DNA from: Nitrospira sp.
GTDB taxonomy: Bacteria; Nitrospirota; Nitrospiria; Nitrospirales; Nitrospiraceae
Length of the DNA: 64,000 nucleotides
Reading direction: 5' to 3'
Assembly (NCBI GenBank): GCA_015709715.1
Contig: CP054184.1
Coordinates: forward strand, 3,643,001-3,707,000
In this document: positions 25,356 through 56,658 of the stretch, one piece after another
Numbering within the stretch: position 1 is the first letter of the stretch
How the letters are laid out: each line of letters starts with the position of its first letter
Notes under the pieces: model-generated
Databases searched by the model: none
Seen by the model: only the letters and a program-made list of their open reading frames with translations
What the model was told of the DNA's origin: nothing
Translations under genes and position numbers: made by a program

Positions 25356-25361
25356 CCGCCC

Positions 25362-40173: not shown

Positions 40174-40201
40174 CGCGCCTCGGCGGGTACGGCAGGATCG
40201 T

Positions 40202-40741: not shown

Positions 40742-42207
40742 GCCGCGTATTGCATGATGCCCCTTCGCCAAAGGCTCGCATGGGGGTGGAGGCGAGCTTT
40801 CTGTGGTTTCTGCTGCCGACTCTGCTCCAAACCCTGCTGGGCGTCGGCGTCATGGTTCCCCTCACGACGTATTACCTGGATCCCGCCGATCTGGGAACGG
40901 TCGCCATTCTCACGGCCTTCGCCATGCTCGTGACGCCGCTGGCCACCACCGGCGACAATTGGGTGTTATCGAGCCACTGGCATGCTACGTCGGAGGCTGA
41001 TCGCAAGGAATTGCTCTTCAACCTCTTGCTGGCCAATCTGGGGATGAAGGTCTGTTGGGCGACCCTGTTCTGGTTGGCGGCCCCGCTGTTGTTGCCCCGC
41101 GTGATTCGCGACTATCGTCCCGAATATCACCATTATTTCGGCCTGGCCCTGCTGGGGTTGGTGGCGGGCACCTTTTGGCCGACGTTGAGCGCGTTGATGG
41201 TGATCGAGCGGGCGCCCGTGAGCCACGCGGTGAATGAATCGCTCCAATGGAGTGCCGGCGCGCTTACGACCGTGATCGGCCTGGTGGTGGCGAAGCTCGG
41301 CGTGCTGGCCCTGTTCTTGGCCCCGATCGCCGCCGGGCTCATGTCCATGGGGCATGGACTCTGGTACGGTGCGGGCCGCGTGGCCTTCCGACCAAGCAGG
41401 CGCTGGGGAAAAGAAATCATGCGGACCGGATTACCGGCGGTTCCCTTCGCCATCATGGACGTGCTGTCGAACAGTCTCGATCGCTTCGTCATCCAACGGT
41501 GGTTGGATCTCTCGACCCTGGGGATTTACGCCCATTCGCAAAGTTATCGCGGGATGTTCGTGACCATGACCAAGGCCTATTCGCGCACGATGACCCCGAC
41601 GTTTCTGGAGCTCTTCGCCCAACCGAAGGCCGAGTCGCCTCAACAGGTTGAACAGGTTGTGTCGCTGTGGTACCTCTGTGTCACGGCGGGCGGGATTGTG
41701 GTCACGCTGTTCGCGCCGGAAGTGATCCATCTGCTGACGCACGGAAAGTTCGATCGGGCTGCGGAGTTGGTGCCGATTTGGTTTCTCCTCGTCTTGGCGC
41801 ATACTGCGGCGATCCCCTATACGCAGTATCTGCTCACGGTACGGCAGAACGTGCTCTTGTCGTGGTCGTCGGTGGGCATGAGTGTGGTGACGATGGTCAT
41901 GGTCTGCGTGGCCACGTGGCAATTCGGTGTGCTCGGCGCGACCGGCGCCGCTGTGGCGGGCTCGTTCGCGCTGCACGGCATTCGGTTCCTTCTGGCCCGC
42001 CGGTTCGGCTGTCCCTATGGGTTGGAGCCGGGGCTGCTCTGGGGGCTGGGAATCGTCCTCGGCGTCTACCTCCTGACGTACTGGGTGGGCGTGCCGTTCA
42101 CGGCGAAGCTGCTGCTTACGGGGGTGGTTGTGGCCACGGTCTTGGTCAAGGCTGCACCGTTCTGTTCGAACGGAAGGTGGGCGACCCTGTGGCCGACCTC
42201 TAAGTAA
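40738..42207 (+). CDS. Polysaccharide flippase, Wzx-like (oligosaccharide transporter of MOP type)
   Basis: This is a 489-residue polytopic membrane protein with about twelve hydrophobic segments, no signal peptide and the polysaccharide-transporter pattern GVGVMVPLTTYYLDPADLGTV at the first helix pair. Its size and charge fit Wzx-type flippases, which move undecaprenyl-linked repeat units to the periplasm. It shares an operon with glycosyltransferases, sugar genes and an O-antigen ligase/polymerase, so Wzx/Wzy assembly is the probable route. ATG 40738 overlaps the cysC stop. MATE-type transporters are the main alternative, less likely here. Confidence 0.88.
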   Translation: MSRVLHDAPSPKARMGVEASFLWFLLPTLLQTLLGVGVMVPLTTYYLDPADLGTVAILTAFAMLVTPLATTGDNWVLSSHWHATSEADRKELLFNLLLANLGMKVCWATLFWLAAPLLLPRVIRDYRPEYHHYFGLALLGLVAGTFWPTLSALMVIERAPVSHAVNESLQWSAGALTTVIGLVVAKLGVLALFLAPIAAGLMSMGHGLWYGAGRVAFRPSRRWGKEIMRTGLPAVPFAIMDVLSNSLDRFVIQRWLDLSTLGIYAHSQSYRGMFVTMTKAYSRTMTPTFLELFAQPKAESPQQVEQVVSLWYLCVTAGGIVVTLFAPEVIHLLTHGKFDRAAELVPIWFLLVLAHTAAIPYTQYLLTVRQNVLLSWSSVGMSVVTMVMVCVATWQFGVLGATGAAVAGSFALHGIRFLLARRFGCPYGLEPGLLWGLGIVLGVYLLTYWVGVPFTAKLLLTGVVVATVLVKAAPFCSNGRWATLWPTSK

Positions 42208-42248
42208 CGCGCGCAGGCGAGGAGCGTGGATTGAGAAGCAATGGAGTG

Positions 42249-42255
42249 AAAGGAG
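42249..42255 (+). promoter_or_regulatory. Ribosome-binding site deciding the start of the C-methyltransferase
   Basis: AAAGGAG ends six bases before ATG 42262 and abuts ATG 42256. The optimum spacing therefore selects 42262 as the translation start. Confidence 0.7.
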
Positions 42256-42261
42256 ATGCCG

Positions 42262-43560
42262 ATGGCGAGTGAGCGAGCAGCGGGTGTGGCGCGACAGGAC
42301 GGCAACGAACCGGGCGCAACGGTCAGCGGCCATTTCGACCATTGCCAAAATTGCAGCCACCGGCCGCTCATTCCCGTCATGGACTTCGGCCATCACCCGC
42401 CTTGCGACTCCTTGTTGCGGCCTGAGCAGTTGGCCAAACCAGAGGCCTTCTACCCCCTCCATGTGTTTCGATGTGAACGCTGCGGGTTGGTGCAGATCGA
42501 CTATGCAGTCGATCCGGCGGAGTTGTTCTACGAAGGGTACCCCTACATGACCGGCATCACCGGCGCGTTGAAGACCAACTTCGACGCCATGGCGGCGAAG
42601 GTCATCGAAACGTTGCGGCTCAAGCCGGGCCGTCTCGTGCTGGACATCGGGTCGAACGACGGTACCATCTTGCAGGGGTTCAAAACGAGGGGCATGCGCG
42701 TGTTGGGGGTCGAACCGACCGGTATCGCGAAGATCGCCAATTCGAGAGGGATTCCGACCAGACAGGCCTTCTTCAGCGAGGAGGTGGCGAGGGACATTCG
42801 ACAGGCGGAAGGCCCCGCGTCGCTCATCACCGCGGCCAACGTGTTCGCGCACGTGGCGAATCTGGGGCCCTGCCTGCGCGGCATCCACGCACTGCTCGCC
42901 GACGACGGCACCTTCATTTCCGAATCCCACTACCTGCTCGACCTGATCGACACGCTGCAATACGACACGATTTACCACGAGCACCTGCGGTTCTATTCGA
43001 TCAAGCCCATGCAGGACATGATGAACCGTTTCGGGTTCAGCGTGGTCGATGTCGAACGCATTCCCAACCACGGCGGCTCGATTCGCGTGTATGCCGTGAA
43101 GGGGACCGCCGGCAGGCCCAGCGAGCGCATGTGCGACTTGGTGAAACAGGAAGAGGCCTATGGTCTGTACGGCGCTGCACTCTACGAGACCTTCGCCCAG
43201 CGGGTCAGGCAGTCGAAGTGGAAACTCATGCGCCTCCTGTCCGACCTGAAGACCAACGGCCATCGTATCGTCGGGATCGGCTCGCCGGGACGGTCGAGCA
43301 CCGTGATGAACTATTGCGGCATCGGCCCGGACTATTTGGATTACACCGCGGAGCAGGCCACGTCGCTGAAGGTCGGTCTCTTCACGCCGGGCACCCACGT
43401 GCCGGTGGTGGACGAACAACGCCTCTTCGACGAACAGCCGGAGTACGCCTTGGTCCTCGCGTGGCATTTGGGTGAGGGGTTGCCCCGCAAGCTCCGCAGC
43501 AAGGGGTTGCGGTCGAAATTCATCATGCCGCTGCCGGACCCCGTCGTCCTGGATTGGTAG
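42262..43560 (+). CDS. Zinc-finger SAM methyltransferase, sugar C-methyltransferase family (NovU/TcaB9-like)
   Basis: The 432-residue protein has three parts. A zinc-binding N-terminus has Cys28, Cys31, Cys71 and Cys74. A SAM-binding Rossmann domain follows (LVLDIGSNDGTIL). The third is the C-terminal domain of this family, with the catalytic block YHEH at 237-240 inside YDTIYHEHLRFYSI. The block is shared with C-3-methyltransferases such as TcaB9 and NovU, which methylate dTDP-4-keto-6-deoxysugars. AAAGGAG at 42249-42255 is spaced six bases from ATG 42262 and would be too close to ATG 42256, so the second ATG is chosen. Substrate is inferred only; O-methylation is also possible. Confidence 0.88.
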   Translation: MASERAAGVARQDGNEPGATVSGHFDHCQNCSHRPLIPVMDFGHHPPCDSLLRPEQLAKPEAFYPLHVFRCERCGLVQIDYAVDPAELFYEGYPYMTGITGALKTNFDAMAAKVIETLRLKPGRLVLDIGSNDGTILQGFKTRGMRVLGVEPTGIAKIANSRGIPTRQAFFSEEVARDIRQAEGPASLITAANVFAHVANLGPCLRGIHALLADDGTFISESHYLLDLIDTLQYDTIYHEHLRFYSIKPMQDMMNRFGFSVVDVERIPNHGGSIRVYAVKGTAGRPSERMCDLVKQEEAYGLYGAALYETFAQRVRQSKWKLMRLLSDLKTNGHRIVGIGSPGRSSTVMNYCGIGPDYLDYTAEQATSLKVGLFTPGTHVPVVDEQRLFDEQPEYALVLAWHLGEGLPRKLRSKGLRSKFIMPLPDPVVLDW

Positions 43561-43580
43561 GGGTGGGTGTCACGCCTCGC

Positions 43581-44696
43581 ATGACGACCGTGACTGTCGG
43601 CATTGTCGGGACCGGTTTCGGCGCTCAGGTACATCTGCCGGCCTTTCGCCGGCTGTCCGCGGTCACCGTGGCCGGGATCGCCGGACAGGATCGGGACAAA
43701 ACGGCTCGCGTGGCGCAGGCCCAGGGCGTTCCCACCGCCTATGGGTCTTGGCAGGCCTTGATCGACGATAAGAAGATCGAGGCCGTGGTGATCGCGGTGC
43801 CGCCGCGATTCCACTGCGAGATGGTCCTGCGGGCCTTGGAGGCCGGCAAACATGTCCTCTGTGAGAAGCCATTCGGGGTTGATCCGGTCGAGGCGGCGTC
43901 GATGCTGGAGAAGGCGAGGCACAGCGACCTGGTCTGCATGGTGGATTACCAGTTTCGGATGGCGCCGGAACGGATTCGGCTGAAGGAACTGTTGGAAGCG
44001 GGGGCGATCGGGCGGGTCCGCAGGGTGACGGTCGAATGGACGGTGCGGGGCCGAGCTGCCGGAAACAGGGCCTGGTCGTGGCAGTTCGATCCCACCGTCG
44101 GCGGTGGCGTGCTGTTCGCGTTCGGTTCCCATGTTGTGGACTATCTGCAGTGGTTGATGGGGCCCGCCAAGAGCGTCACCGCGCACCTCAGCACGAGAGG
44201 CGGCCCTGCGGTCATGGGGCCGGATGCTCGCCCGGCGGCAGCCGATACGTTGGACGGCATTCTTCTGTTGCAGGACGACATTCCCGCGTCGATCACGATT
44301 TCCAATGCCACCCCCGGCGGGCGCGGCCATTGGCTGACGGTCTACGGAGAACGGGGCGCGTTGGTCGTCGGGAACCCGAATCAGGCCGACGCCGTAATCG
44401 GGACCTGTTTGTATGAGTCGGATCCGACGACCGGGGTCCTGCGGGAAGTGCCGGTGTCCGCTCCGTCGACCGACGGTCTGTCCGACGGACGGACGTTGTT
44501 GGTCGGCCGGCTTGCCGAGACCTTTGCCTCGGCCATTCGTGCGGGCACGCCGACGGCGCCCTCGTTCGAGGATGGGTGGCGCGCGCAGGTCGTCATGCAG
44601 GCCATGCGGGAGGCGCACGAACGACGACGGTGGATGCCGGTGGACATGCCGGGGGGGCGTGGTCGATCCTGGAGCCATGTCCGTCGAACACCATGA
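43581..44696 (+). CDS. Gfo/Idh/MocA-family oxidoreductase (sugar modification)
   Basis: This is a 371-residue two-domain dehydrogenase. The cofactor motif is GIVGTGFGAQVHLPAF. The family motif CEKPFGVDP and the substrate-side block FGSHVVDYLQWLMG with its conserved His are clear. Such proteins oxidise sugars or reduce keto-sugars, here possibly a nucleotide-sugar intermediate of the same branch as the C-methyltransferase just upstream. ATG 43581 is used; a frame starting at TTG 43554 would add nine residues and overlap. The stop overlaps the next gene by ATGA. It is clearly different from the lipid A-linked Gfo/Idh protein at 5565. Confidence 0.88.
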   Translation: MTTVTVGIVGTGFGAQVHLPAFRRLSAVTVAGIAGQDRDKTARVAQAQGVPTAYGSWQALIDDKKIEAVVIAVPPRFHCEMVLRALEAGKHVLCEKPFGVDPVEAASMLEKARHSDLVCMVDYQFRMAPERIRLKELLEAGAIGRVRRVTVEWTVRGRAAGNRAWSWQFDPTVGGGVLFAFGSHVVDYLQWLMGPAKSVTAHLSTRGGPAVMGPDARPAAADTLDGILLLQDDIPASITISNATPGGRGHWLTVYGERGALVVGNPNQADAVIGTCLYESDPTTGVLREVPVSAPSTDGLSDGRTLLVGRLAETFASAIRAGTPTAPSFEDGWRAQVVMQAMREAHERRRWMPVDMPGGRGRSWSHVRRTP

Positions 44697-46015
44697 AGAT
44701 TTTTCTCCTGTTGTCCAACGCTCCCGATCCCGCAGGCGAGGCGATCGAAGTGGTGGGGCAGGAGGTCGTCGAAAAGGCGCAGCAGCTCGGACATCGAGTC
44801 TTCGTGCAGGTCATTCTGCGTGACCCACGGAACAGTCGCGCAGCCGAACAGACAGAACGGGCCCTGGCTCGGTTGCAGTTGCCTGAGGTGACGGTCTGCC
44901 CCACGCTGTATGTGGCCGATGTCGCGGAGCCGGCCCAGGCGCAGAACCTGGTGGCGCGGATCCTTCGCGTGTCGGCTGCCTTGAGCCTGCGCCGGCTCTT
45001 CCCGGCGTCGAGGCTCGGACCGACGGTCGAGCGGCGGGTCCGGGAGGCGGGCGCGGAGGCGATTCTGAGTATTTGGAGCTGGGAAGCCTTGGCCGCCAGT
45101 TATCACATCGCAGGAGTTCCGAAGTTCGTGTACTACGGCAACCCCGACCATCTGCCGCCCCAGGCGCGGCTCAGGAATCCGGAGCTGTTCGGCATCCCGA
45201 CCGCGTCCTGGCGTGATCGTCTCTGGTGGCGATGGGAGTGGGTGCGGAACGAACGGCGTAAGCAGCTCAACATCCGGATGATGCATGCCTGTGAAGTGAC
45301 GGCTAACAATTCGGTGTTGGATGCGGAGTTCTATCGCGCCCACGGCCATGCGCGGTCGATCTATCTCCAGAACATGTGGCCGCCGGTCAAAGCGTCCACG
45401 CCGCCGGTGTCGGTGCAGGATCAACCCGGACCGGTGAAGATCATCGGCAGCGTAGGCAACTTGGGCGCGACCGGCAACACCTTTGCGTTGGCGTATCTAG
45501 GGAGGGAGCTGTTGCCGCGGTTGTTCGAACGTTTCAGAGATCGCCCTGTGGAAATTCACCTGTTGGGGAAGGGCACGTTGTCGCCTGCCGCGGCAGCGTC
45601 CCTCGGGGATGCCCGAGTGAAAATTCGTGGCTGGGTGGATGACATCCATGAAGAGTTCCGTTCCGCCGCGATGTTTCTCGTGTTGACGAACGTGAACCCC
45701 GACTTCCTTGTCGGCAATACCAGAATTTTGCTCGCCTGGGCGTTGGGGACCTGCGTCGTCATGCATGAGAACAGCCGGTTGGCGATGCCGGAGATTCAGC
45801 ATGGAGTCAATGCCTTGTTGGGCCGCACGCCCGACGAGTTGGCGGACCTGATTGTCGCCGCGTCGGACGATCACGCGCTCAGGCAGCGGATCGGCGAAGG
45901 AGGCCGGCAGACCTTCGAGACCTACTACCGATCGGACGTCGTCGTGCCGACCATGATGCGGTTGGTTCAGGAGATGGTGGATCGTCATCGAGCGGGGCAG
46001 GGTGCGTCGGCCTGA
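44693..46015 (+). CDS. GT4-like glycosyltransferase
   Basis: This 440-residue GT-B-like protein has SNAPDPAGEAIEVVGQEVVE at the start, IIGSVGNLGATGNTFALAYL in the hinge and a C-terminal donor region RILLAWALGTCVVMHENSRL with a general GT4 appearance. The donor motif is less canonical than in neighbouring GT4 genes (VGNTRILLAWALG), so this is a divergent member. ATG 44693 overlaps the Gfo/Idh stop by ATGA; longer frames read back into that gene. Acts in the cytoplasm. Donor unknown. Confidence 0.75.
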   Translation: MKIFLLLSNAPDPAGEAIEVVGQEVVEKAQQLGHRVFVQVILRDPRNSRAAEQTERALARLQLPEVTVCPTLYVADVAEPAQAQNLVARILRVSAALSLRRLFPASRLGPTVERRVREAGAEAILSIWSWEALAASYHIAGVPKFVYYGNPDHLPPQARLRNPELFGIPTASWRDRLWWRWEWVRNERRKQLNIRMMHACEVTANNSVLDAEFYRAHGHARSIYLQNMWPPVKASTPPVSVQDQPGPVKIIGSVGNLGATGNTFALAYLGRELLPRLFERFRDRPVEIHLLGKGTLSPAAAASLGDARVKIRGWVDDIHEEFRSAAMFLVLTNVNPDFLVGNTRILLAWALGTCVVMHENSRLAMPEIQHGVNALLGRTPDELADLIVAASDDHALRQRIGEGGRQTFETYYRSDVVVPTMMRLVQEMVDRHRAGQGASA

Positions 46016-46063
46016 GCGGTGACGCGGGAGACCTGACTCGGATTGCAGAAGAAAGAGGAGACT

Positions 46064-46846
46064 GTGAAAAACGCCATTGTCGCTCGCATCGGAGAAGGGC
46101 TTGCCACGTTGTTGCCGGATGTCGTCTGCACCGCCTTTGCGAGGCAATTGGCCGAGCGGAATCCGCAACTGTTGTTGGAGGCGCTCGGGCCCAAGCTGAA
46201 CCGCACGCCGTCGCTGGATACCATGCCGTTCGACTTGGCGCCGACGGCGCCGCTTCAGTTCGAAGACCTGGCCGGACTGTTCGCCAGCACCTCGCTGGAC
46301 CACGGCGTCATCGCCATGACGGTGAGGCAAACGGCCTACCTCTTCGGGTTGGTTCGACGCATGAAGCCTCGTAAGGTGATCGAGATTGGGCGCTACAAGG
46401 GCGGATCGACCGTCACGATTGCGGCCGCTATGGCGGGGCAGGGCGAGTTTTGGTCGATCGACATCGGGGAGAAGGAAGCGCGCCTGCATCAACGAGCCGC
46501 CGCGCGTACGTTCGACGACGAGATCCGCGACATCTGCAACCGGTTCGGCCTGCGGGTCACCCTGCTGGTGGGAGACTCGCGCGCGATTCAAGTCGAGACG
46601 GGCGAAGTCGATCTGGTCTTCATCGACGGAGACCACAGTTACGAAGGGGTGCGGAACGATTTCGAACGGTTCGGCACACGTGTGCGGGTCGGGGGAGCTG
46701 TGTTGTTCGACGATGCCTGCGACGAAGCCATGTTCCACACCCATTCGGAATCCGTCGGCAAGTTGCTCACGGAAATCGTGGCGGCAGGATCGTTCCGGTT
46801 GGTCAAGTCGGTGAATCGTCTCGCCCACATCGAGCGAATCCGGTAG
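46064..46846 (+). CDS. Class I SAM-dependent methyltransferase (Methyltransf_24-like)
   Basis: This is a 260-residue protein with a short helical N-terminal part and a Rossmann domain starting KVIEIGRYKGGSTVTIAAAM, continuing with WSIDIGE and the family motif LVFIDGDHSYEGVRNDFERF. The DGDHSYEG block is typical of enzymes that act on sugars or small molecules in glycan loci, including cephalosporin hydroxylase-like proteins and rhamnosyl O-methyltransferases. GTG 46064 follows AGAGGAG at about 46054-46060; an in-frame TTG at 46043 is the alternative. A sulfotransferase gene follows after eight bases. Confidence 0.85.
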   Translation: MKNAIVARIGEGLATLLPDVVCTAFARQLAERNPQLLLEALGPKLNRTPSLDTMPFDLAPTAPLQFEDLAGLFASTSLDHGVIAMTVRQTAYLFGLVRRMKPRKVIEIGRYKGGSTVTIAAAMAGQGEFWSIDIGEKEARLHQRAAARTFDDEIRDICNRFGLRVTLLVGDSRAIQVETGEVDLVFIDGDHSYEGVRNDFERFGTRVRVGGAVLFDDACDEAMFHTHSESVGKLLTEIVAAGSFRLVKSVNRLAHIERIR

Positions 46847-46854
46847 GAGGCATC

Positions 46855-47982
46855 GTGTTGGTCGGCATCTTCGGCGCAGGTCGAAACGGATCCTCGCTCC
46901 TCATGCGGCTGTTGGACGGCAGTCCGGGCTTGTGGATTTACCCGATCGAGCTCAACTACCTGCGCGGGTTTGCGCCCCGTTCGTTGAAGGGCCTGGTGAA
47001 GCAGGCCCTGGCTGCCTGCAGCGCGATGGTGCCCGGCCAAGCCGGAGGGACACTCGAAAGCCGGCAGCGACAGTTGATGAGGGGCTGGGCGACGGAACAG
47101 ATGCAGGAGTTGAAGGCGACCTATCTCGACAAACTCGTCGACCCCATCGTGCCGATCGGTGATCCGATCGAGACGGTCATGCGCCGCACGCACGGCGACC
47201 TCGTGGGTGATCTCGCAGGGTACCTGGAAGCCGTCCGCTCCTGTTACGACCAACGGCGGTTGCCCTCGGCCCCGATGCCCATGTTCAAGTCGATCGAGGT
47301 CTCGGATCTGCCGCGGTATCACCGGCTCTTTCCGGACATGAAGTTCATCCACATCATGCGGCATCCCTACTCCAACTACAGCTCGCTCAAACGCACCGAC
47401 ATGGTGTTGAAGCAGAAACCCTTTTGGTTTCAAGGTGGCGACATCCTGAGGCTGCAGCTGGAGTCCCGTTGGATTCCCCATGCGGAGTTCACCCTGGAGG
47501 GATTGAAGCGCGAACCCTCCAAGCACTACTTGGTCCGGTACGAAGATTTGTGCGATGCGCCGACCGATACGGTGAACGGTATCTGTGCCTGGCTGGGTGT
47601 GCCGCCCCCTGAGGAGCCGACGGTGCAAACCGTGTTGGGAGGTCGGCATACGAAGTCCTTGCCGATCAATTCGAGTCTCAAAGGTGTGGAGACGCCGGCC
47701 CAGGTCGTGTCGGACATGGCGAAGACCTATGGGTACGACGACATCCTGACCGAGCGGGAACGGGCCTTGATCCTGCTGCGTACCTATCGACTCGGCCGTC
47801 GATTAGGCTATTTTTCCGAGGAGGAGGGCACGCAGGTGCCGGCGAAGTTTCCGTTGTTCCTCCAGTGGCTGGCCCCGGATCAATGGGAATACATGAACGC
47901 GTCCTCGCGTCTCCGGTTGGCGCGCGCGCTGATCCAGCGCCGGCTCTACCTCTGCCGGGTGCTGCTCTCGCCGCTCGGGTAG
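46855..47982 (+). CDS. Sulfotransferase-family protein (PAPS-dependent)
   Basis: The 375-residue protein has the 5'-phosphosulfate binding loop IFGAGRNGSSLLMRLL at 5-20 and the 3'-phosphate binding segment FIHIMRHPYSNYSS with RHP at 169-171, the two hallmark sites of PAPS sulfotransferases. GTG 46855 follows AGGAGG; the in-frame TTG at 46858 is an alternative. A longer frame from 46450 would overlap the methyltransferase. It probably transfers sulfate from PAPS, supplied via cysC at 40202, to a sugar of the glycan. There is no membrane segment, so transfer should happen in the cytoplasm before export. Confidence 0.9.
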   Translation: MLVGIFGAGRNGSSLLMRLLDGSPGLWIYPIELNYLRGFAPRSLKGLVKQALAACSAMVPGQAGGTLESRQRQLMRGWATEQMQELKATYLDKLVDPIVPIGDPIETVMRRTHGDLVGDLAGYLEAVRSCYDQRRLPSAPMPMFKSIEVSDLPRYHRLFPDMKFIHIMRHPYSNYSSLKRTDMVLKQKPFWFQGGDILRLQLESRWIPHAEFTLEGLKREPSKHYLVRYEDLCDAPTDTVNGICAWLGVPPPEEPTVQTVLGGRHTKSLPINSSLKGVETPAQVVSDMAKTYGYDDILTERERALILLRTYRLGRRLGYFSEEEGTQVPAKFPLFLQWLAPDQWEYMNASSRLRLARALIQRRLYLCRVLLSPLG

Positions 47983-48012: not shown

Positions 48013-49053
48013 ATGAAGTTTTCCTCACGTGACAAGACGATGTTTCAAACGGTCTTTGCACCGACGCCGGCGGAGGCCTGCACGTTGCTCGACTATGTGC
48101 GGTTCCTGTGGGAGGAACGGATCGGCGAACGTATCGCGAACGATCCGCTCTACCGGCCGTCGGATCTGTGGAGGCAGTGGGCCGCGCAGACCTTCACCGG
48201 ATTTTCGTTGGAGAAGCTGCTGCTGCAGGGTGGCCATGCCTTTCCCGCCTCGATGGAGGTGGCGGCTGGTCCCATGGCACCGCAGCCGCGGTGGCGGCGC
48301 GCGTTGGGTGCCTTGTTGGGGGGGAAGGAAGCCGAGCGCATCCGGCAGGGGCGCGAGGTGGGACCTCTTCAGGCCTGGTTCCGGCGGTTCTATCCCCAGG
48401 TGGGGATCTGCCCCGAACATGCGCATTGGTATGCCTGGCACCCCAATCCCTATTTCCGCTGCCTGGAGGCCTATGTCCTGCGGGAGAAACGGCCGCTGCC
48501 GGCCACGATGTTGGAAGTCGGCGCCGGGGCCTGCGTGAACGTGGCGTTTTACCGCAGCCTGAATCCGGCCTTGCGCGCGACCGTCGTCGATCTGCCGGAA
48601 ACGATGCTGTTCGGCTACTGTTTCTTGAAGAGCGTGTTTCCCGACCTCCGCGTGACCTTGCCTCATCAGGTCGAATCGAACCAGACGGGCGCCGAGGCGG
48701 AGGTCCGGTTCCTGCTGCCGACCCAGGTTGAGACTGTCCCCAGCGAGAGCATGGATTTCTGTTTCAACATGTCTTCGTTTCAGGAAATGACTATCGACAG
48801 CGTCAACCATTACCTTCGGTTCTTGGCACGGGTGCTCAAGCCGGGCGGAACGCTCCTGTCCGTCAACCTGGAGACCTCGCGGTACCTGGCAGGGAACGCA
48901 TTGAAGAATTATGACTTTGCCCTGTACCATGCGGCACCTCGACTCAAGCCGGCTCCCTTCGGCACGGACTTGATCGACCATGTGCCCGGGATGAACATTG
49001 TGCATGCCGAGGTGACCAAAGGGGGCGGGCCTCAAGGTGTTGCGGAGGCCTGA
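48013..49053 (+). CDS. Putative sugar O-methyltransferase (SAM-dependent), next to nonulosonate genes
   Basis: This 346-residue protein has the SAM-binding motif MLEVGAGACVNVAF near residue 165 and, further on, MDFCFNMSSFQEM, typical of a putative sugar O-methyltransferase family found beside sialic acid genes. The N-terminal 150 residues form a helical region with several Trp residues (DLWRQWAAQTF). It overlaps neuA by one base (TGATG at 49053), so it is likely expressed with neuABC. O-methylation of the nonulosonic acid is a reasonable guess. ATG 48013 has a GC-rich lead without a clear ribosome site. Confidence 0.8.
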   Translation: MKFSSRDKTMFQTVFAPTPAEACTLLDYVRFLWEERIGERIANDPLYRPSDLWRQWAAQTFTGFSLEKLLLQGGHAFPASMEVAAGPMAPQPRWRRALGALLGGKEAERIRQGREVGPLQAWFRRFYPQVGICPEHAHWYAWHPNPYFRCLEAYVLREKRPLPATMLEVGAGACVNVAFYRSLNPALRATVVDLPETMLFGYCFLKSVFPDLRVTLPHQVESNQTGAEAEVRFLLPTQVETVPSESMDFCFNMSSFQEMTIDSVNHYLRFLARVLKPGGTLLSVNLETSRYLAGNALKNYDFALYHAAPRLKPAPFGTDLIDHVPGMNIVHAEVTKGGGPQGVAEA

Positions 49054-49745
49054 TGCGGGTCTTGGCCGTCATCCCGGCGCGAGGCGGGTCGAAATCGATC
49101 CCGCTGAAAAACATTCGGCCGCTCCAGGGCCTGCCCCTGTTGGCCTATACGATCAAGGCCGCCAAGGCCTGTTCCAGGCTCGACCGGTGCGTGGTGTCGA
49201 CCGACCATCCGGAGATCGCGACGGTGGCCAAGGACTATGGCGCCGAGGTTATCGAGCGGCCGGCCGATTTGGCGACCGATCAGGCGCCGACTGAGTGGGC
49301 GCTGCTGCAGGTCGTGGAGGTCTTGGGGCGCGAGGGCTATCGGCCCGACTATGTGGTGACCCTGGAGCCGACCTCGCCGCTACGTACGGCTGGGCTGATC
49401 GATCGCTGCATCGACACCGCGATCGCGCATCCGGAGGTCGATTGCGTGATGACGGTCACCGAGACCAGGAAATGTTACGGACGCCTGGAAAACGGGCGGT
49501 TCGAATACCTGTTTCCCAACCAGCCCCGGCGTAGACAGGAACGCCGGCCCTTGTACGAAGAGAGCAGTACGGTGTATGTGACGAAGACCGAGGTGCTGGA
49601 GCGAGACCGGTCGGTCCTGGGGCGCACGCGTCAGGGGCTCGTGGTGGATGATCCTCGCGAGGCGATCGACATCAACGAACCATTGGATTTCATCGTGGCG
49701 GAGGCGGTGCTGGCCCAACGCCTTCTGGAGGAGCAACATGGCTGA
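49053..49745 (+). CDS. neuA: Acylneuraminate cytidylyltransferase (CMP-nonulosonic acid synthetase)
   Basis: NeuA activates a nonulosonic acid with CTP. The 230-residue protein begins AVIPARGGSKSIPLKNI, the family nucleotide-binding signature, and has TLEPTSPLRTAGLID and DDPREAIDINEPLDF near its ends, as in NeuA and pseudaminic or legionaminic CMP-transferases. Which sugar it prefers cannot be read off. ATG 49053 overlaps the methyltransferase stop. The 3' end overlaps neuB by eight bases. Cytoplasmic. Confidence 0.93.
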   Translation: MRVLAVIPARGGSKSIPLKNIRPLQGLPLLAYTIKAAKACSRLDRCVVSTDHPEIATVAKDYGAEVIERPADLATDQAPTEWALLQVVEVLGREGYRPDYVVTLEPTSPLRTAGLIDRCIDTAIAHPEVDCVMTVTETRKCYGRLENGRFEYLFPNQPRRRQERRPLYEESSTVYVTKTEVLERDRSVLGRTRQGLVVDDPREAIDINEPLDFIVAEAVLAQRLLEEQHG

Positions 49746-50784
49746 GATCGCATCGATTCCCATCGGGCCCTATCGCATCGGACCGGAGCATCCGCCCCTG
49801 GTCATCGCCGAAGCGGCGGTCAACCATCAGGGCGACTTCGAGACGGCCAAGCGTATGGTCTACATCGCCCACGCGATGGGGGCACATATCATCAAGTTCC
49901 AGATCCACGTGCTAGACAACGAGATGCTGCGGGAGACACCGCAATCGGCCAACTTTGCCGAGCCGTTGTACGTGACGTTGGACAAGACGAACCTCACCGT
50001 CGACCAACATCGGGAGCTGAAGCGGCTCTGTGAATCGTTAGGCATTCTGTACCTGTGCACGCCCTTCAGCCGAGTGGGAGCCGATATCCTGGAAGATTTG
50101 GGGGTAGCGGCCTACAAGACCGGATCGGGAGAATTGACCAACCTGCCGCTCATCGAACATATCGGGCGGAAGGGCAAACCGATGATCGTGTCGACCGGCA
50201 TGTGCACCATCGACGAGGTGGGCGAAACAGTCGCGTTGCTGCGGCAACTGAAGACGCCCTTCGCGCTGACCCATTGCGTCTCCGCCTATCCGACGCCCTA
50301 TGACCGAGTGAATCTGGGCATGATTGCCCGGTATCGTGACCTGTTCCACGTGCCGGTCGGCCTGTCCGACCATTCGCGGGGCATCTATACGGGCATCGGC
50401 GCCGCCGCACTGGGGGCCTGCGTGATCGAAAAACATTTCACGCTCGACCGCCAGCAGCCGGGCCCGGACCATCCGGTGTCCATCGAGCCGGACGAACTCA
50501 GCGACCTGGTGAAAGGTGTGGATGCGGTGTTTCGCGCGCGCGGCGCGGAGCGGGAGATCTTCCCGGAGGAGCGCGAGATCGTGGCCTGGGCGCGCGAGAG
50601 CGTCGTGTCGGAGGTGCCCATCGCGCGCGGCAGCGTCATCACGAAGGACATGGTGTGGGTCAAGCGTCCGAGCCCCGGTCCCGGGGCGGTGGCGGCCAAA
50701 GATTTGGGGAAGGTCATCGGCAAGGTCGCGCAAGTCGATATTCCGAAGGACAGCCAGATCCGATGGGAGCAGCTGAACGCATGA
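49738..50784 (+). CDS. neuB: N-acetylneuraminate synthase family protein (NeuB)
   Basis: NeuB condenses a 2-acetamido-2-deoxymannose-type sugar with phosphoenolpyruvate to give a nine-carbon nonulosonic acid. The 348-residue protein has VIAEAAVNHQGD (residues 22-33), a TIM-barrel core with STGMCTIDEV, HCVSAYPTPYD and IEKHFTLDRQQPGPDH, and a C-terminal SAF-type domain (about 285-345) that closes the active site. ATG 49738 is eight bases inside neuA. It overlaps neuC by ATGA. Neu5Ac, legionaminic and pseudaminic synthases share these motifs. Confidence 0.94.
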   Translation: MAEIASIPIGPYRIGPEHPPLVIAEAAVNHQGDFETAKRMVYIAHAMGAHIIKFQIHVLDNEMLRETPQSANFAEPLYVTLDKTNLTVDQHRELKRLCESLGILYLCTPFSRVGADILEDLGVAAYKTGSGELTNLPLIEHIGRKGKPMIVSTGMCTIDEVGETVALLRQLKTPFALTHCVSAYPTPYDRVNLGMIARYRDLFHVPVGLSDHSRGIYTGIGAAALGACVIEKHFTLDRQQPGPDHPVSIEPDELSDLVKGVDAVFRARGAEREIFPEEREIVAWARESVVSEVPIARGSVITKDMVWVKRPSPGPGAVAAKDLGKVIGKVAQVDIPKDSQIRWEQLNA

Positions 50785-51929
50785 AGCGCAAGATCGCGGT
50801 CGTGTCCGAAGCCAGGGCCACCTACGGCTACATCAAGCGCGTGATGCATCTGGTCGAAGCGTCCGATCGGCTGGAGTTGCAGCTCATCGTCACCGGCATG
50901 CACCTCTTGAAGGAGTACGGGGCCTCGATCAACGAAATCCTGCGGGATGGGTTCGTGCCGGCGGCCTGGGTGGATATGTACCTGGGCGGGGATACGCCGA
51001 CGGCCTGGGCCAAGTCGCTCGGTGTGGAGATGCAGGGGTTGGCGCAGGTCTATGACATGCTGAAGCCCGATCTCCTGCTCGTGGCCGGCGATCGAGCGGA
51101 AATCCTCGCGGCCACCGTGACGGCGGCCTATATGAACATTCCCGTCGCCCACATCCAGTCCGGCGACCTGTCCGGCCACATCGACGGGTCGGCCCGGCAC
51201 GCCATTACGAAGCTTGCGCATGTCCACCTGCCAGCCTGCGAAGATTCCGCCGAGCGGGTGCGGAAAATGGGCGAAGAAGTCTGGCGCATCTTCAACGTGG
51301 GGGCGCCGCAGCTGGACGATGTGGTGCAGGGCAAGAAGTTGTCGCGCGCGGAGTTGGCCAGGATCTTCGGGGTGGACTTCGACCAGCCGGTCCTGTTGGT
51401 GATTCAGCATGCGGTGTTGGCGGAAGTGCACCTGGCGAGGAAGCAGATGGAAGAAACCTTGGCCGCCGTGAAAGACAGCGGGCACCAGGCGCTGGTGATC
51501 TATCCTAACGTAGATGCGGCGGGGCAGGAGATCATCGCGGTCATCCGCCAATATGAACAGGTGCCCACGATCAAGACCTTCAAGAACCTGGAGCGCGAGG
51601 TATTTCTCAGCCTCCTGTCCGCCGTGTCGGTCTTGATCGGCAACTCCAGCGTCGGCATTCTGGAAGCGCCGTCGTTCAAATTGCCGGCCTTGGACATCGG
51701 CAGCCGCCAGACCGGCCGCATGCGGGCCTGCAATGTCATTACCGTGCCGGAGTTCGATCGCCGCCTGATCGGTCAGGCCATCGAGCGGGCGCTCTACGAC
51801 GAGGGGTTCCGGGCCGCTGTACAGACCTGCGAGAATCCCTACGGCGACGGCCACAGTTCGGAGCGGATCTGCCGGATCTTGGAAGAGGTGGACCTGGGCC
51901 GGTTGCTGAACAAACAGATGACCTATTAG
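50781..51929 (+). CDS. neuC: UDP-N-acetylglucosamine 2-epimerase, hydrolysing (NeuC)
   Basis: NeuC releases UDP from UDP-GlcNAc (or a diacetamido analogue) and inverts C2, giving the ManNAc-type substrate for NeuB. The 382-residue GT-B fold protein has VVSEARATYGYIKRVM, GDRAEILAATVTAAYMNIPV, HIDGSARHAITKLAH and GNSSVGILEAPSFKLP then GSRQTGRM, as in hydrolysing epimerases. ATG 50781 overlaps the neuB stop. neuA, neuB and neuC are therefore together in the order A-B-C. No dehydratase/aminotransferase pair of the legionaminate route is visible here. Confidence 0.93.
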   Translation: MKRKIAVVSEARATYGYIKRVMHLVEASDRLELQLIVTGMHLLKEYGASINEILRDGFVPAAWVDMYLGGDTPTAWAKSLGVEMQGLAQVYDMLKPDLLLVAGDRAEILAATVTAAYMNIPVAHIQSGDLSGHIDGSARHAITKLAHVHLPACEDSAERVRKMGEEVWRIFNVGAPQLDDVVQGKKLSRAELARIFGVDFDQPVLLVIQHAVLAEVHLARKQMEETLAAVKDSGHQALVIYPNVDAAGQEIIAVIRQYEQVPTIKTFKNLEREVFLSLLSAVSVLIGNSSVGILEAPSFKLPALDIGSRQTGRMRACNVITVPEFDRRLIGQAIERALYDEGFRAAVQTCENPYGDGHSSERICRILEEVDLGRLLNKQMTY

Positions 51930-51942
51930 AGGCGACGCGAGT

Positions 51943-52941
51943 ATGAATGCTCCAGTCTTGGTGACCGGGGGAGCCGGCTGCATCGGAATTCAAGTTTGTC
52001 GTGAACTGGATCGGCGGGGGATCGAGGTGCATCTGCTGGATCTGGGCGAGCAGATCGCGCGGGTCAAGCAGGCGCTGCCGCCGAAGGTCAAGGTCTTTTA
52101 CGGGTCGATCCTGGACGTGTCGTCGATTCGCGAGGCGATGCAGGGCTGCGGGGCGGTGATCCACCTTGCGGCGTTGCTCGGCGTGCGGCGCACCGAGGTC
52201 AATCGCCTTCGCTGCCTCGAAATCAACGTAGAGGGCACGAAGCGGGTGCTCGATTGCGCGATTCAACACCGCATCCGGCGCCTCGTCTTCGCCTCCTCCT
52301 CGGAAGTGTACGGGGAACCGCTGGAGAACCCCATCACCGAAGAGACCATCACGCAGGGTAAGACGGTCTATGCCGTGAGCAAACTCGCCGGCGAGGAACT
52401 TTGCATCGGGTATGCGCAGCGTTATCCCGAATTCGAGCACGTGATCCTGCGGTTCTTCAACGCCTACGGCCCCTACCAGGCGGCGCAGTTCGTGCTGCCC
52501 AAGTTCATCCAGAACGCCATGACGGGCAGGCCGATCGTGATCAACGGCAGCGGCGACCAAATCCGCTCCTACTGCTATAGCGAGGATACGGGGCGCGGCG
52601 TGGTGGAGGCCTTGCTGCGGCCGGAGGCGCGCGGAGAGATCATCAATCTGGGCAACAGCGACCGTCCCATCTCGCTCACGGAGTTGGCGGACATCGTGGT
52701 CGAGGCCAGCGGCAACCCCTCGGTGACGATCAAGTACGCCGAAGATTTTCAAGGTACCGATCGCCATGCGAGCCGTGAAATCCACCGGCGCTACTGTTCC
52801 GGCGACAAGGCAAAGCGCCTGCTGGGGTTCGAATCCCGCGTCCCGCTGGAAGCGGGGATCCGTCGGATCATCGAGATGAACAGTATCTTCGAAAAGTGGG
52901 AAAGCACCGAGTTGCCGTACTTGATCGACGAAATGACCTGA
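51943..52941 (+). CDS. NAD-dependent epimerase/dehydratase (extended SDR), nucleotide-sugar modifying
   Basis: This 332-residue extended-SDR protein has VLVTGGAGCIGIQVC, VIHLAALLGVRR, FASSSEVYGEP, YAVSKLAGEEL (YxxxK) and RFFNAYGPYQAAQFVLP, which place it with UDP-glucose 4-epimerase and UDP-glucuronate decarboxylase-like enzymes. Being 14 bases after neuC, it may act in the nonulosonate route or provide another sugar. The exact reaction cannot be told by eye. ATG 51943 is preceded by a weak GAGGCG site. Confidence 0.9.
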   Translation: MNAPVLVTGGAGCIGIQVCRELDRRGIEVHLLDLGEQIARVKQALPPKVKVFYGSILDVSSIREAMQGCGAVIHLAALLGVRRTEVNRLRCLEINVEGTKRVLDCAIQHRIRRLVFASSSEVYGEPLENPITEETITQGKTVYAVSKLAGEELCIGYAQRYPEFEHVILRFFNAYGPYQAAQFVLPKFIQNAMTGRPIVINGSGDQIRSYCYSEDTGRGVVEALLRPEARGEIINLGNSDRPISLTELADIVVEASGNPSVTIKYAEDFQGTDRHASREIHRRYCSGDKAKRLLGFESRVPLEAGIRRIIEMNSIFEKWESTELPYLIDEMT

Positions 52942-52971
52942 GAAGGGATATCCGCGCGTCCGCCTGCCTGC

Positions 52972-54657
52972 ATGACCCACGGGAACTGGAAAACGACCGC
53001 CAAACGCCTTCTCTCACGCACCGGCCTGCTGCCCGCCGCGCGTGAGCTTCGTTATCAAACTCGACGAGCGACCGATTCCACCTTTCGCGCGCACGAACAA
53101 CAGGTGGAGCAGGAATTCCGCCGATTCGCAGACCAGTATGGAGCGGCGTTCCGTCAGGTCGCGCCTGCCCAGCAGGAGGGGCGGCGAGTCCTGATCGTCA
53201 GTTCGGGCTCGCTGGGGCAGTTGGTGGAGATCGCCCTTGTCACGGCCTTTCGCGCGGCAGGGTATCGGCCGATGATCCTAGGCGATTACGACCGATGGAT
53301 GGAGGCGTACTACCGCGAGGTGGGCGTGCCGGATCAACGGTATTGGGATGAGTGGTTCAAGCCGGTGCCGCAGGCGGAGGCGGCAGCCCTCCTGGGAACG
53401 ATCGGGTCGTTTGAACAATTGATCAAGCTCGAATATGCCGGGACGCGAGTCGGGAAATATGCGGCCTCGACCGCTCTGCGCCATCTGCGGGTCGGACGAA
53501 TCGACCTGGCGGACCGAGGCATCAAGGACGCGCTGTTGCCGTTTCTGCACCGCGCCATGTGTGATGCAGAGACCGCGCGAGCGATCGTGGAGGAGCTGCG
53601 GCCGCACCTCGTCCTGTCAGTCGATTTGGGTTATTCACCGCGCGGGCAACTCTTCGATGTCTGTCTGGCGGCCGGCATCGATACGATCACCTGGAACGCC
53701 GCCCATCGCAACAACACCCTGATGCTGAAACGGTACAACCGCGTCAATCGCGACGTCCATCCCGCGTCGCTCTCGGCGCACACCTGGCGGACCCTGACGG
53801 CGAGGCCCTGGACCGATCAGGAGCGTGAGCGACTCCGTCAGGAACTGATCGGCAGTTACCAAAGCGGTGAGTGGTACAGCGAGGTCGGGACGCAGTTCCG
53901 TACGTCGCTGCGGGAAGCGGAGGAGGTGCGCCGGACGTTGGACCTCGATCCGGGCAAGAAGACTGTCGTGGTCTTTCCGCACATCTTCTGGGACGGCACC
54001 TTTTTTTACGGCACCGATCTCTTCGAAAGTTACGAGGAGTGGTTCGTGGAAACGATGCGCGTCGCCTACGCCAATTCCCGCGTCAATTGGGTGGTGAAGA
54101 TCCATCCCGCCAACCTCGTGAAGAATATCCGTGACGGGATCGGGTCCGAGCCGTCTGAACTCGCAGCGCTTCGCAGCCTCGGTCAAAACCTTCCCTCACA
54201 GGTGCGGCTCGTCCCGCCGGACAGTCCGATCAGCACGCTCTCCCTCTATGCCATTATGGATTGTTGTGTGACGGTACGGGGTACCGTCGGAATCGAGGCG
54301 GCCAGCTTCGGCATTCCGGTGCTGACGGCGGGCACGGGACGATACGACCGGCTGGGCTTCACGATCGATTCCGCCTCCAGGGCGCAGTATCTCGACCGGC
54401 TGGCCCACATCGACAGCCTGCCTCCGATGACGGGCGAGCAGCGGCGGCTAGCAGAGCAGTTTGCCTACGGGATCTTCGTGCTCCGGCCCCTCACGCTCAG
54501 GACGGTCGCATTGGAATATCAACGTGACGCCAAGGCGAGTTTGCGGACCATGGTGCGGGTCCCGACGAGCAGCGCCGTGCGCGAGGCACCCGATCTCCGA
54601 GCCCTGGCCGAGTGGGTCCGCAGTGGAGAGGAAGATTTCATCGCGCCGCATGTCTAG
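52972..54657 (+). CDS. Hypothetical GT-B-like protein, capsule-synthesis/KpsC-like C-terminus
   Basis: I do not recognise a specific family for this 561-residue protein. Residues 70-110 (RRVLIVSSGSLGQLVEIAL) look like the first strand-helix of a Rossmann or GT-B domain. Residues 380-470 carry VKIHPANLVKN and RGTVGIEAASFGIPVL, similar to the nucleotide-binding half of capsule-synthesis and Kdo-type GT-B transferases. The N-terminal 65 residues are basic and helical. No membrane segment is seen. Because the gene directly follows neuABC and the epimerase, a role as the nonulosonic acid transferase is possible but unproved. ATG 52972 gives a 30-base gap after the epimerase. Confidence 0.75.
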   Translation: MTHGNWKTTAKRLLSRTGLLPAARELRYQTRRATDSTFRAHEQQVEQEFRRFADQYGAAFRQVAPAQQEGRRVLIVSSGSLGQLVEIALVTAFRAAGYRPMILGDYDRWMEAYYREVGVPDQRYWDEWFKPVPQAEAAALLGTIGSFEQLIKLEYAGTRVGKYAASTALRHLRVGRIDLADRGIKDALLPFLHRAMCDAETARAIVEELRPHLVLSVDLGYSPRGQLFDVCLAAGIDTITWNAAHRNNTLMLKRYNRVNRDVHPASLSAHTWRTLTARPWTDQERERLRQELIGSYQSGEWYSEVGTQFRTSLREAEEVRRTLDLDPGKKTVVVFPHIFWDGTFFYGTDLFESYEEWFVETMRVAYANSRVNWVVKIHPANLVKNIRDGIGSEPSELAALRSLGQNLPSQVRLVPPDSPISTLSLYAIMDCCVTVRGTVGIEAASFGIPVLTAGTGRYDRLGFTIDSASRAQYLDRLAHIDSLPPMTGEQRRLAEQFAYGIFVLRPLTLRTVALEYQRDAKASLRTMVRVPTSSAVREAPDLRALAEWVRSGEEDFIAPHV

Positions 54658-54705: not shown

Positions 54706-56658
54706 TTGTGCGGCATAGCGGGCATGGTCGGCCCCGGCGCCTCGGAGGCCGTCCGTCGCATGACCGGCTCGTTGGTGCATCGCGGGCCGGACGACGGCGG
54801 CCATTACGACGCTCCTGCAGCCCGCCTCTGTTTGGGCATGCGGCGGCTGAGCATCCTGGATTTAGCCCACGGCCACCAACCGATGGCCAATCAAGACGAG
54901 TCGGTCTGGATCGTCTACAACGGTGAGGTCTTCAATTCGCCGGAGTTGCGTGGGCGCTTGGAGCGCGACGGCCGCCGCTTCGCGACCGCGAACTCCGACA
55001 CGGAAACGCTGCTGCATCTGTACGACGAGAAGCAGGAAGCCATGCTGGCGGATCTCAACGGCATGTTCGCCTTCGTCCTGCACGACAAGCGGCGCCGGCT
55101 GTTGTTCGGCGCGCGCGATCGCCTCGGCATCAAACCGTTGTACTATGCGCTCACACCGAGCGGATTCGCCTTCGCGTCGGAACTGAAGGGCCTGCTCACC
55201 GCGCCCGGCATACGGCGCGAATTGAACCGCGATAGCCTGTCCCATTACGTCACGCTGCGGTTCGTGCCGGGCACGGCATCCATAGTCCGAGGGGTCGCTC
55301 GCCTCGCGCCAGGCCATTGGTTTCGGTACGACCTGACCAGCGGCGCGTTCGAAACACAGTGTTACTGGCGGCCGTCCTTTGCGCCTCAGGAGGGACGCTC
55401 CGTCCAGGAATGGAGCGAACAGGTCCGCACCGACCTCCGAGCCGCCGTACGTCGCTGGAGCCTGAGCGATGTGGCGATCGGTTGCTCGCTGTCGGGCGGA
55501 CTCGATTCGTCGAGCATCGTCGGGCTGCTGGCCGACAGCGGCCACCGCCGGCTCAAGACCTATTCGCTGGGGTTCGTCGGAGAGGGGGCGGCGGCGCTGG
55601 ATGAATTGCCCTTGGCGCGCCAGGTGGCGGAGCGTTGGGGGACGGATCACCATGAGTTGATCCTGCGCCCCGAGGATCTGCTGCGAGACCTTCTCAAGAT
55701 GGTCTGGGCCTTGGATGAACCCTACGGCGGCGGGCTCCCCTCCTGGTACGTATTCCAGTTCATGCAACAGGACGTCAAGGTTGGAATGACGGGGAGCGGC
55801 GGTGATGAGCTGTTCGGCGACTACGGGCGGTATATTGCCTTGGAACGACGCCTGGGAGAGGGACGGGACACATCCTGCCCTTCCTGGATGGAGCGTGGCT
55901 GGCCGCTGGTGGCGTCGTTCGTGGATCGACTTCCGCATGGGCTCGGCGGTCTCCGGCGCAAGGATCGCTGGCGCCACTATCCGCTGGTGCGCCGTGACCC
56001 GTTCGGCTGGGACTACGTGCAGGCGTTTTATTATTGTTCTGAACCTATGAAGAGCCGTGATGTGCTCTTGCCGGCGGAGGACGGACGGCCGATCGCCGAT
56101 ACCGTAGAGTGTCTGCGGACTTACTACCAAGAGTCCGGCAGCGCGGAGCCGCGAGACGCCTTGACGTACGTCGCCCTGCGTACGCAACTGCCCGAAGAAT
56201 TCCTGTTCATGACCGATCGGTTTTCCATGGCCCACTCGTTGGAGGCGCGGGTTCCCTTTCTCGATCACCTGTTCGTGGAATCCGTCCTGCGGATTCCGGC
56301 GCACATCCGCACGAAACCGGAGGATCCGAAGTATCTACTGCGGCAGGCCCTGCGCGATTTGTTGCCCGATGACCTGGTGCATGCGCCGAAGCGTGGGTTC
56401 GTGATTCCGACGGCGCAATGGCTGCGTGGGCCGCTTCGTCCGCTTGCCGAGCGGATGTTGAATCCGGCGCGACTGGCCGAGCAGGGGCTGTTCCGTCCGG
56501 AGTTCCACGCGCGATTCGTCCGTCCCCATGTCGAGGGACAAGCGGACTATCACCCGCAAGTCTGGACCGCCCTCATGTTTCAGCTGTGGCACAGCCTCTA
56601 TGTCGAACAGCAGCTAACGGAGGCTCCCAGCATGACCTGGCAGGATCTCTGCGCCTAG
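54706..56658 (+). CDS. asnB: AsnB-type glutamine-dependent amidotransferase, copy 2 (TTG start)
   Basis: This is a 650-residue paralogue of the gene at 36145. The glutaminase N-terminus is (M)CGIAGMVGPG with nucleophile Cys2. The start must be the TTG at 54706 because it is the only initiator that exposes that Cys, and GGGAGG precedes it. RGPDDGGHY, NGEVFNSPEL, the PP-loop SGGLDSSSIVG and ARVPFLDHLFVE are all conserved. A rare start codon may keep its level low. As with copy 1, amidation of a sugar acid or a lipid-linked intermediate is more likely than asparagine synthesis. It follows the GT-B-like gene by 48 bases. Confidence 0.93.
   Translation: MCGIAGMVGPGASEAVRRMTGSLVHRGPDDGGHYDAPAARLCLGMRRLSILDLAHGHQPMANQDESVWIVYNGEVFNSPELRGRLERDGRRFATANSDTETLLHLYDEKQEAMLADLNGMFAFVLHDKRRRLLFGARDRLGIKPLYYALTPSGFAFASELKGLLTAPGIRRELNRDSLSHYVTLRFVPGTASIVRGVARLAPGHWFRYDLTSGAFETQCYWRPSFAPQEGRSVQEWSEQVRTDLRAAVRRWSLSDVAIGCSLSGGLDSSSIVGLLADSGHRRLKTYSLGFVGEGAAALDELPLARQVAERWGTDHHELILRPEDLLRDLLKMVWALDEPYGGGLPSWYVFQFMQQDVKVGMTGSGGDELFGDYGRYIALERRLGEGRDTSCPSWMERGWPLVASFVDRLPHGLGGLRRKDRWRHYPLVRRDPFGWDYVQAFYYCSEPMKSRDVLLPAEDGRPIADTVECLRTYYQESGSAEPRDALTYVALRTQLPEEFLFMTDRFSMAHSLEARVPFLDHLFVESVLRIPAHIRTKPEDPKYLLRQALRDLLPDDLVHAPKRGFVIPTAQWLRGPLRPLAERMLNPARLAEQGLFRPEFHARFVRPHVEGQADYHPQVWTALMFQLWHSLYVEQQLTEAPSMTWQDLCA

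Follow-up and report, generated by a model that had tools for sequence, protein, structure and literature searches.

The classical sialyltransferases are, to our knowledge, all inverting, and we know of few nonulosonate transferases outside pathogens. In KpsC, a retaining Kdo transferase, Asp160 is the proven nucleophile and forms a covalent Kdo adduct (PMC10148158). The (K/R)XHP motif binds CMP in sialyl- and Kdo-transferases, and the C-terminal HP domain is common to the inverting GT38 family and the retaining Kdo enzymes (PMC12887879). The Gln of the QXXXD motif binds the carboxylate in Kdo transferases. It has been argued that Kdo-like retaining enzymes may not evolve readily towards sialic acids, in which the C5 group is equatorial (PMC12887879). 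In addition, a D/E-D/E-G motif has been described (PMC6388019).

The locus described here encodes a protein, GTX, of an uncharacterised family in the KpsC clan that is tied to sialic-acid-type synthesis, while the pathway itself is ordinary. Nitrospira, the host, is a nitrite oxidiser and common in wastewater systems. Nonulosonic acids occur in wastewater granules (PMC10483923). Among the papers searched, none on Nitrospira nonulosonates was found.

Gene content and exchange of the cassette

The window, the whole stretch of 64,000 nucleotides that was analysed (C1:3643001-3707000), lies in a closed Nitrospira genome of 4.16 Mb. Annotation of its ORFs showed that surface-polysaccharide genes fill nearly the whole window. 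These genes encode a Kdo transferase (KdtA), LpxK, heptosyltransferases, enzymes of dTDP-rhamnose and GDP-sugars, an O-antigen ligase, two AsnB-like proteins, a heparinase-like protein, an APS kinase, and several glycosyltransferases and methyltransferases. The genes of the locus are listed in Table 1.

Table 1. Genes of the nonulosonate cassette and its flanks, in positions of the window.
Feature	Position	Strand	Basis or remark
APS kinase	40160-40741		
Wzx-type flippase, upstream part of exchanged cassette	40747-42207	+	tblastn to L067 ORF; Polysacc_synt_3
Sugar C-methyltransferase	42256-43560	+	Methyltransf_13/14
Gfo/Idh/MocA oxidoreductase	43554-44696	+	family match
GT4-like glycosyltransferase, cassette-specific, rival transferase	44690-46015	+	Glyco_trans_1_4
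Methyltransferase (O-methyltransferase)	46043-46846	+	Methyltransf_24
Sulfotransferase	46855-47982	+	Sulfotransfer_3
Sugar O-methyltransferase (MT), putative, TIGR04371 type	48013-49053	+	TIGR04371 match; optional decoration gene
neuA, CMP-nonulosonate cytidylyltransferase	49053-49745	+	PF02348
neuB, nonulosonate synthase with SAF domain	49738-50784	+	PF03102 and tree
neuC, hydrolysing UDP-HexNAc 2-epimerase, GNE side	50781-51929	+	TIGR03568, tree and motifs
Extended SDR (SSEVYG, YAVSK), not LegB	51943-52941	+	PF01370
GTX, candidate transferase for CMP-nonulosonate; C-terminal domain like that of KpsC/KpsS	52972-54657	+	profile comparison, motifs
AsnB-like amidotransferase, directly 3' of GTX, conserved flank	54706-56658	+	also adjoins GTX in G168 and G121

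An earlier note on this DNA had described six genes on one strand, from MT to GTX, with neuA, neuB and neuC contiguous and overlapping. All six open frames were found on the plus strand, and the ATG codons of neuB and neuC lay within the ends of neuA and neuB, respectively. The genes from MT to neuC were translationally coupled, with a 1-nt overlap (TGATG) at the MT/neuA junction. A long minus-strand frame (41431-43467) was spurious, as Wzx and the C-methyltransferase are encoded on the plus strand there. Gene order and sequence were kept in other Nitrospira (L035, G224, G094, G129, and G055), with identities of 88–93% for NeuB, NeuC, and the SDR, and 70–73% for GTX and MT. Because this synteny is conserved, the six-gene block is not a chance arrangement.

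The first gene matched TIGR04371 with 71.6 bits (cut-off 44) over residues 163–275 only, in agreement with the putative sugar O-methyltransferase that the note had placed before neuA. MT was conserved in G224, G129, and L035 (72–73% identity), whereas in G094 and G055 it was internally deleted in frame, with the start and end kept and approximately residues 43–266, including the SAM-binding motif, gone. These remnants indicate that methylation is a variable decoration. The remnant is perhaps retained for translational coupling to neuA, and to name the nonulosonate as the target of O-methylation is a guess. The 'epimerase' said to follow neuC proved to be right as to the presence of an SDR-family gene (PF01370, 182 bits), but its motif Glu was of the 4,6-dehydratase/decarboxylase type and not of the GalE type. 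The SDR was found only with this cassette type, in 11 genomes, and therefore belongs to the cassette. Its role may lie with the nonulosonate or, together with the C-methyltransferase and Gfo/Idh oxidoreductase of Table 1, with a C-methylated deoxysugar.

The idea of a self-contained module was too narrow, since the exchanged cassette also contained Wzx, the C-methyltransferase, the Gfo/Idh oxidoreductase, a glycosyltransferase, an O-methyltransferase, and the sulfotransferase. The locus is best explained as one variant of an interchangeable cassette in the Nitrospira surface-polysaccharide cluster. In G121, of the same genus, whose cassette contained neither SDR nor MT, the downstream flanking GT4 was 78% identical, whereas GTX was ~35% and NeuB/C/A were 37–40% identical. 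Therefore, GTX was exchanged together with neuABC rather than staying with the flank.

Donor domain and candidate catalytic residues of GTX

GTX reached no Pfam or NCBIfam cut-off, and the earlier note had likewise assigned it to no family. The best curated carbohydrate match was PF05159 (Capsule_synth), with 15.3 bits against a cut-off of 20, and the sialyltransferase families in Pfam (GT38, GT42, GT52, and GT80) gave no match at E 0.1. When a superfamily profile of 17 members (A3) was compared with all PDB chains, the five best matches were KpsC, with E values from 4e-7 (top 4.4e-7) to 1e-4. The hhalign comparison of the GTX profile gave 1.7e-7 for K1 KpsC and 5e-7 for KpsS, against control values of 1e-3 for NeuC, 0.15 for GT4, 0.3 for polysialyltransferase, and 0.74 for GT9; NeuC itself has a GT-B-like fold. 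The donor-domain homology to KpsC-type retaining ulosonate transferases (GT99/GT107/GT140) was thus significant and was located in the C-terminal half of GTX. A relationship to polysialyltransferase or NeuE found no support, with no hhalign match to the K1 polysialyltransferase. A structure prediction from two sequences was of low confidence (pLDDT 44, pTM 0.38).

The (K/R)XHP motif was present in GTX as K376-I-H378-P379, and its HP was found in 19/19 superfamily members. Residue Asp341 aligned with the nucleophile Asp160 of KpsC and was conserved in 18 of the 19. In the region of the QXXXD motif, Asp341 was kept and the Gln was replaced by His337. A D/E-x-G-like motif, reminiscent of D/E-D/E-G, ended an N-terminal strand. 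From these residues, a donor site can be proposed in which K376-x-H378-P379 would hold CMP and Asp341, at the place of KpsC Asp160, would form a covalent nonulosonate–enzyme intermediate, leading to retention of configuration, with Asp218 as a candidate base. Retention by GTX is held tentatively, close to an even call.

GTX may instead be an inverting CMP-nonulosonate transferase, with Asp218 of the N-terminal domain as the base and Asp341 in a structural role. The occurrence of the HP domain in both inverting and retaining enzymes fits this reading, and so does the conservation of the D/E-x-G-like motif, in which residue 218 was D or E in 10/10 members of the core GTX family (cf. PMC6388019). 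However, D/E218 was lost in the wider superfamily, where Asp341 was almost invariant, and there was no profile similarity between GTX and the K1 polysialyltransferase. An inverting GTX is possible but doubtful.

The retaining reading has to accommodate His337 at the place of the carboxylate-binding Gln of Kdo transferases, as well as the argument that Kdo-like retaining enzymes may not readily take sialic acids, given the equatorial position of their C5 group (PMC12887879). Given this argument, the KpsC-like GTX is a testable candidate counter-example. GTX may also be the first member of a family of sialic-acid-type transferases that are retaining and use a KpsC-like Asp nucleophile, but this is rather unlikely.

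Predicted nonulosonate product

Synthesis of a nonulosonate is almost certainly encoded by the cassette. NeuA matched PF02348 with 79.4 bits (cut-off 22.6) and was below the PseF equivalog (123.9 vs. 205.7 bits). NeuB passed both domain cut-offs, PF03102 (254 bits) and SAF, and missed the Neu5Ac synthase equivalog TIGR03569 (331 vs. 399.65 bits). NeuC matched TIGR03568 (NeuC_NnaA) with 402.8 bits (cut-off 235.9). A genome-wide search found one strong NeuB, the second PF03102 match being weak (41.5 bits). The same genome gave no LegC and no LegB match above cut-off, which agrees with the absence of the legionaminate pair claimed from the window, and no aminotransferase or N-acetyltransferase was found in the cassette.

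Trees of NeuB and NeuC were built from ~40 loci, and loci with an SDR-aminotransferase pair (LegB/LegC arrangement) nearby were labelled as LEG-context. The NeuC tree had two sides with support of 100/99. The NeuC of the window was placed with human GNE and nearly all pair-less loci. On the other side were K1 NeuC and the LegG structure of A. baumannii, together with the majority of the LEG-context genes. The NeuB of the window grouped with N. meningitidis NeuB, with weaker support (82/83). NeuB and NeuC of E. coli K1, which are genuine Neu5Ac enzymes, were on the LEG side in their respective trees, and therefore tree position alone cannot decide between the substrates. The Neu5Ac-like product that the earlier note preferred to a legionaminate-like one is favoured but unproven, by both trees and by the lack of LegB and LegC above cut-off. 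On this sequence evidence, a Neu5Ac-type backbone made from ManNAc is likely. NeuC would most likely convert UDP-GlcNAc to ManNAc, NeuB would form a Neu5Ac-type nonulosonate from ManNAc and phosphoenolpyruvate, and NeuA would activate it to the CMP-nonulosonate. MT, the SDR, and the sulfotransferase may decorate the nonulosonate or a neighbouring sugar.

A legionaminate-like sugar, or some other deoxy or epimeric nonulosonate, is an unlikely product, for which the SDR would act before NeuC as a 4-epimerase or 4,6-dehydratase and the missing steps would be encoded elsewhere. The SDR was as conserved as NeuB and NeuC (90–93%), was seen only with this NeuC/GTX type, and has the dehydratase Glu (SSEVYG), and the NeuC clade of the window has odd motif residues (HIQSGD for HIxGGE, and QHAV for QHPV), all of which are consistent with such a product. 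Although LegB was the best NCBIfam match of the SDR, it was rejected as its identity, with a score of 153 against a cut-off of 475 bits and a position outside the LegB clade. The missing aminotransferase, N-acetyltransferase, and LegC noted above also argue against a legionaminate-like product, and what the SDR makes might just as well be used by the C-methyltransferase and Gfo/Idh oxidoreductase that the cassette also encodes.

Linkage of GTX to nonulosonate genes and comparison with known systems

A profile from 12 GTX proteins was searched against 296 Nitrospirota genomes, with split matches merged, and GTX-superfamily genes were found at 32 places in 29 genomes. A NeuB gene lay within 15 kb at 21 of the 32 places, against 0.39 expected by random placement. 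As a control, this expectation is an underestimate, since polysaccharide genes tend to lie in clusters anyway. NeuB was present in 26 of the 29 carrier genomes, compared with 105 of the 296 overall. Since the random expectation is too low, the co-exchange in G121, a tandem protein in G293, and the plasmid homologues weigh more. The tandem GTX protein of G293 has 1175 residues and is encoded between two neuBC sets. Only two plasmid homologues of GTX were found, both labelled 'hypothetical', one in Azospirillum, ~8 kb from neuB, and one in Legionella adelaidensis, 1.4 kb from an acylneuraminate cytidylyltransferase gene. No GTX relatives were found in viral contigs.

These observations, together with the KpsC/KpsS-like donor domain, support the proposal of the earlier note that the unassigned GT-B protein is the transferase. 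GTX has two domains, and its C-terminal Rossmann domain shares homology with the domain of KpsC/KpsS that binds CMP-Kdo. GTX is probably the enzyme that would transfer the nonulosonate to the growing glycan. Exceptions to the linkage speak against the explanation as a whole: relatives in G083, G062, and G099 were located away from NeuB, and NeuB was not found in the carriers G043, G016, and G286, although in these the GTX genes were close to a contig end or on a short contig. Taken together, the explanation by an exchangeable cassette, a nonulosonate pathway, transfer by GTX, and retention through Asp341 is reasonably likely. It is quite improbable that another cassette glycosyltransferase, such as the GT4-like one of Table 1, adds the nonulosonate and that GTX adds another CMP-sugar (e.g., Kdo) or another residue: the former is likewise cassette-specific (74% identity in close relatives, ~25% elsewhere), and GTX is KpsC-like in a window whose LPS-type genes (KdtA and LpxK) imply that CMP-Kdo is made, but the known members of the GT4-like family (Glyco_trans_1_4) use NDP-sugars, and Kdo leaves unexplained the change of GTX with neuABC, the tandem GTX between neuBC sets, and the linkage in other phyla.

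In both Nitrospirota and Pseudomonadota, the unannotated GTX family is linked to nonulosonate synthesis. It would fill a gap in transferases outside pathogens and offers a convenient way to test if members of the KpsC clan accept sialic-acid-type donors. If GTX is retaining, the sialic-acid linkage in the surface glycan would be opposite to that of known sialyltransferases, and such a retaining transferase of the sialyl type would also add a new tool for synthesis.

When compared with the neuABC pathway of N. meningitidis and animal GNE, the cassette is similar in that its NeuB and NeuC group with those enzymes, whereas it has no known sialyltransferase-family member or polysialyltransferase and has an additional SDR and MT. 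GTX shares the C-terminal donor domain, (K/R)XHP, the aligned Asp, and the GxE region with KpsC/KpsS, the retaining β-Kdo transferases (GT107 and relatives) of the E. coli group 2 capsule. However, GTX (~560 aa) has His for the Gln of QXXXD and an N-terminal half with no detectable KpsC match, and it is linked to neuABC instead of capsule export. The GT118 enzyme KpsS1 of A. baumannii, a retaining pseudaminyltransferase related to KpsC (cited in PMC12887879), is an example of nonulosonate transfer within the KpsC clan. Its pseudaminic acid has an axial C5 group, whereas a Neu5Ac-type donor with an equatorial C5 group is predicted for GTX.

The NCBIfam family NF046086 matched the GTX relative of G259 (E 5e-6) and other relatives weakly, while GTX itself was unmatched and is longer. 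NF046086 is BFO_1060, a Tannerella-type locus name, which may correspond to GtfS. The Tannerella GtfS nonulosonate transferases resemble GTX as nonulosonate-linked glycosyltransferases with an HP motif (PMC6388019).

NeuC loop and reduced methyltransferase genes

Set against the rest of the hydrolysing epimerases in the comparison, the NeuC clade of the window carried unusual active-site-loop residues: HIQSGD, IDG, and QHAV. In two other Nitrospira with a syntenic cassette (G094 and G055), the methyltransferase gene was cut to ~120 codons by an in-frame internal deletion, which removed the SAM-binding motif and retained the start, the stop, and the coupling to neuA.

Coordinates of the features in the window and the comparison loci (L)
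Feature	Genome	Location
NeuC	window	50781-51929
Reduced methyltransferase gene	G094	L067:7873-8217
Reduced methyltransferase gene	G055	L069:13532-13194
Tandem GTX	G293	L070:11393-14920
Two-frame GTX relative	G016	L078:7439-8427
Radical SAM look-alike	G293	L070:9660-11291
Radical SAM look-alike	G085	L085:6872-8482
AsnB-like amidotransferase	window	54706-56658
APS kinase, sulfotransferase	window	40160-47982
426-aa frame	window	24399-25679 (-)

Relatives and neighbours of GTX

The candidate transferase GTX occurred in G293 as two tandem units within a 1175-aa protein, flanked by two neuBC sets. A relative in G016 (57–63% identical) lay on a short contig with its coding sequence split between two frames, and NeuB was not found in this genome. 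Look-alikes of B12-binding radical SAM enzymes adjoined NeuB/NeuC in G293 and in a cluster of G085 that also included an 881-aa Maf-like protein. An AsnB-like amidotransferase adjoined GTX in the window, and was located beside or close to GTX in distant genomes (L072, L073, and L075); it might amidate a glycan carboxylate.

Sulfation genes and a minus-strand frame

Within the polysaccharide region, a 426-aa minus-strand frame had no Pfam match and may be spurious. Because an APS kinase and a sulfotransferase lie near the nonulosonate genes, the glycan is likely both sulfated and sialylated; such a glycan is on record from granular sludge (PMC10483923).
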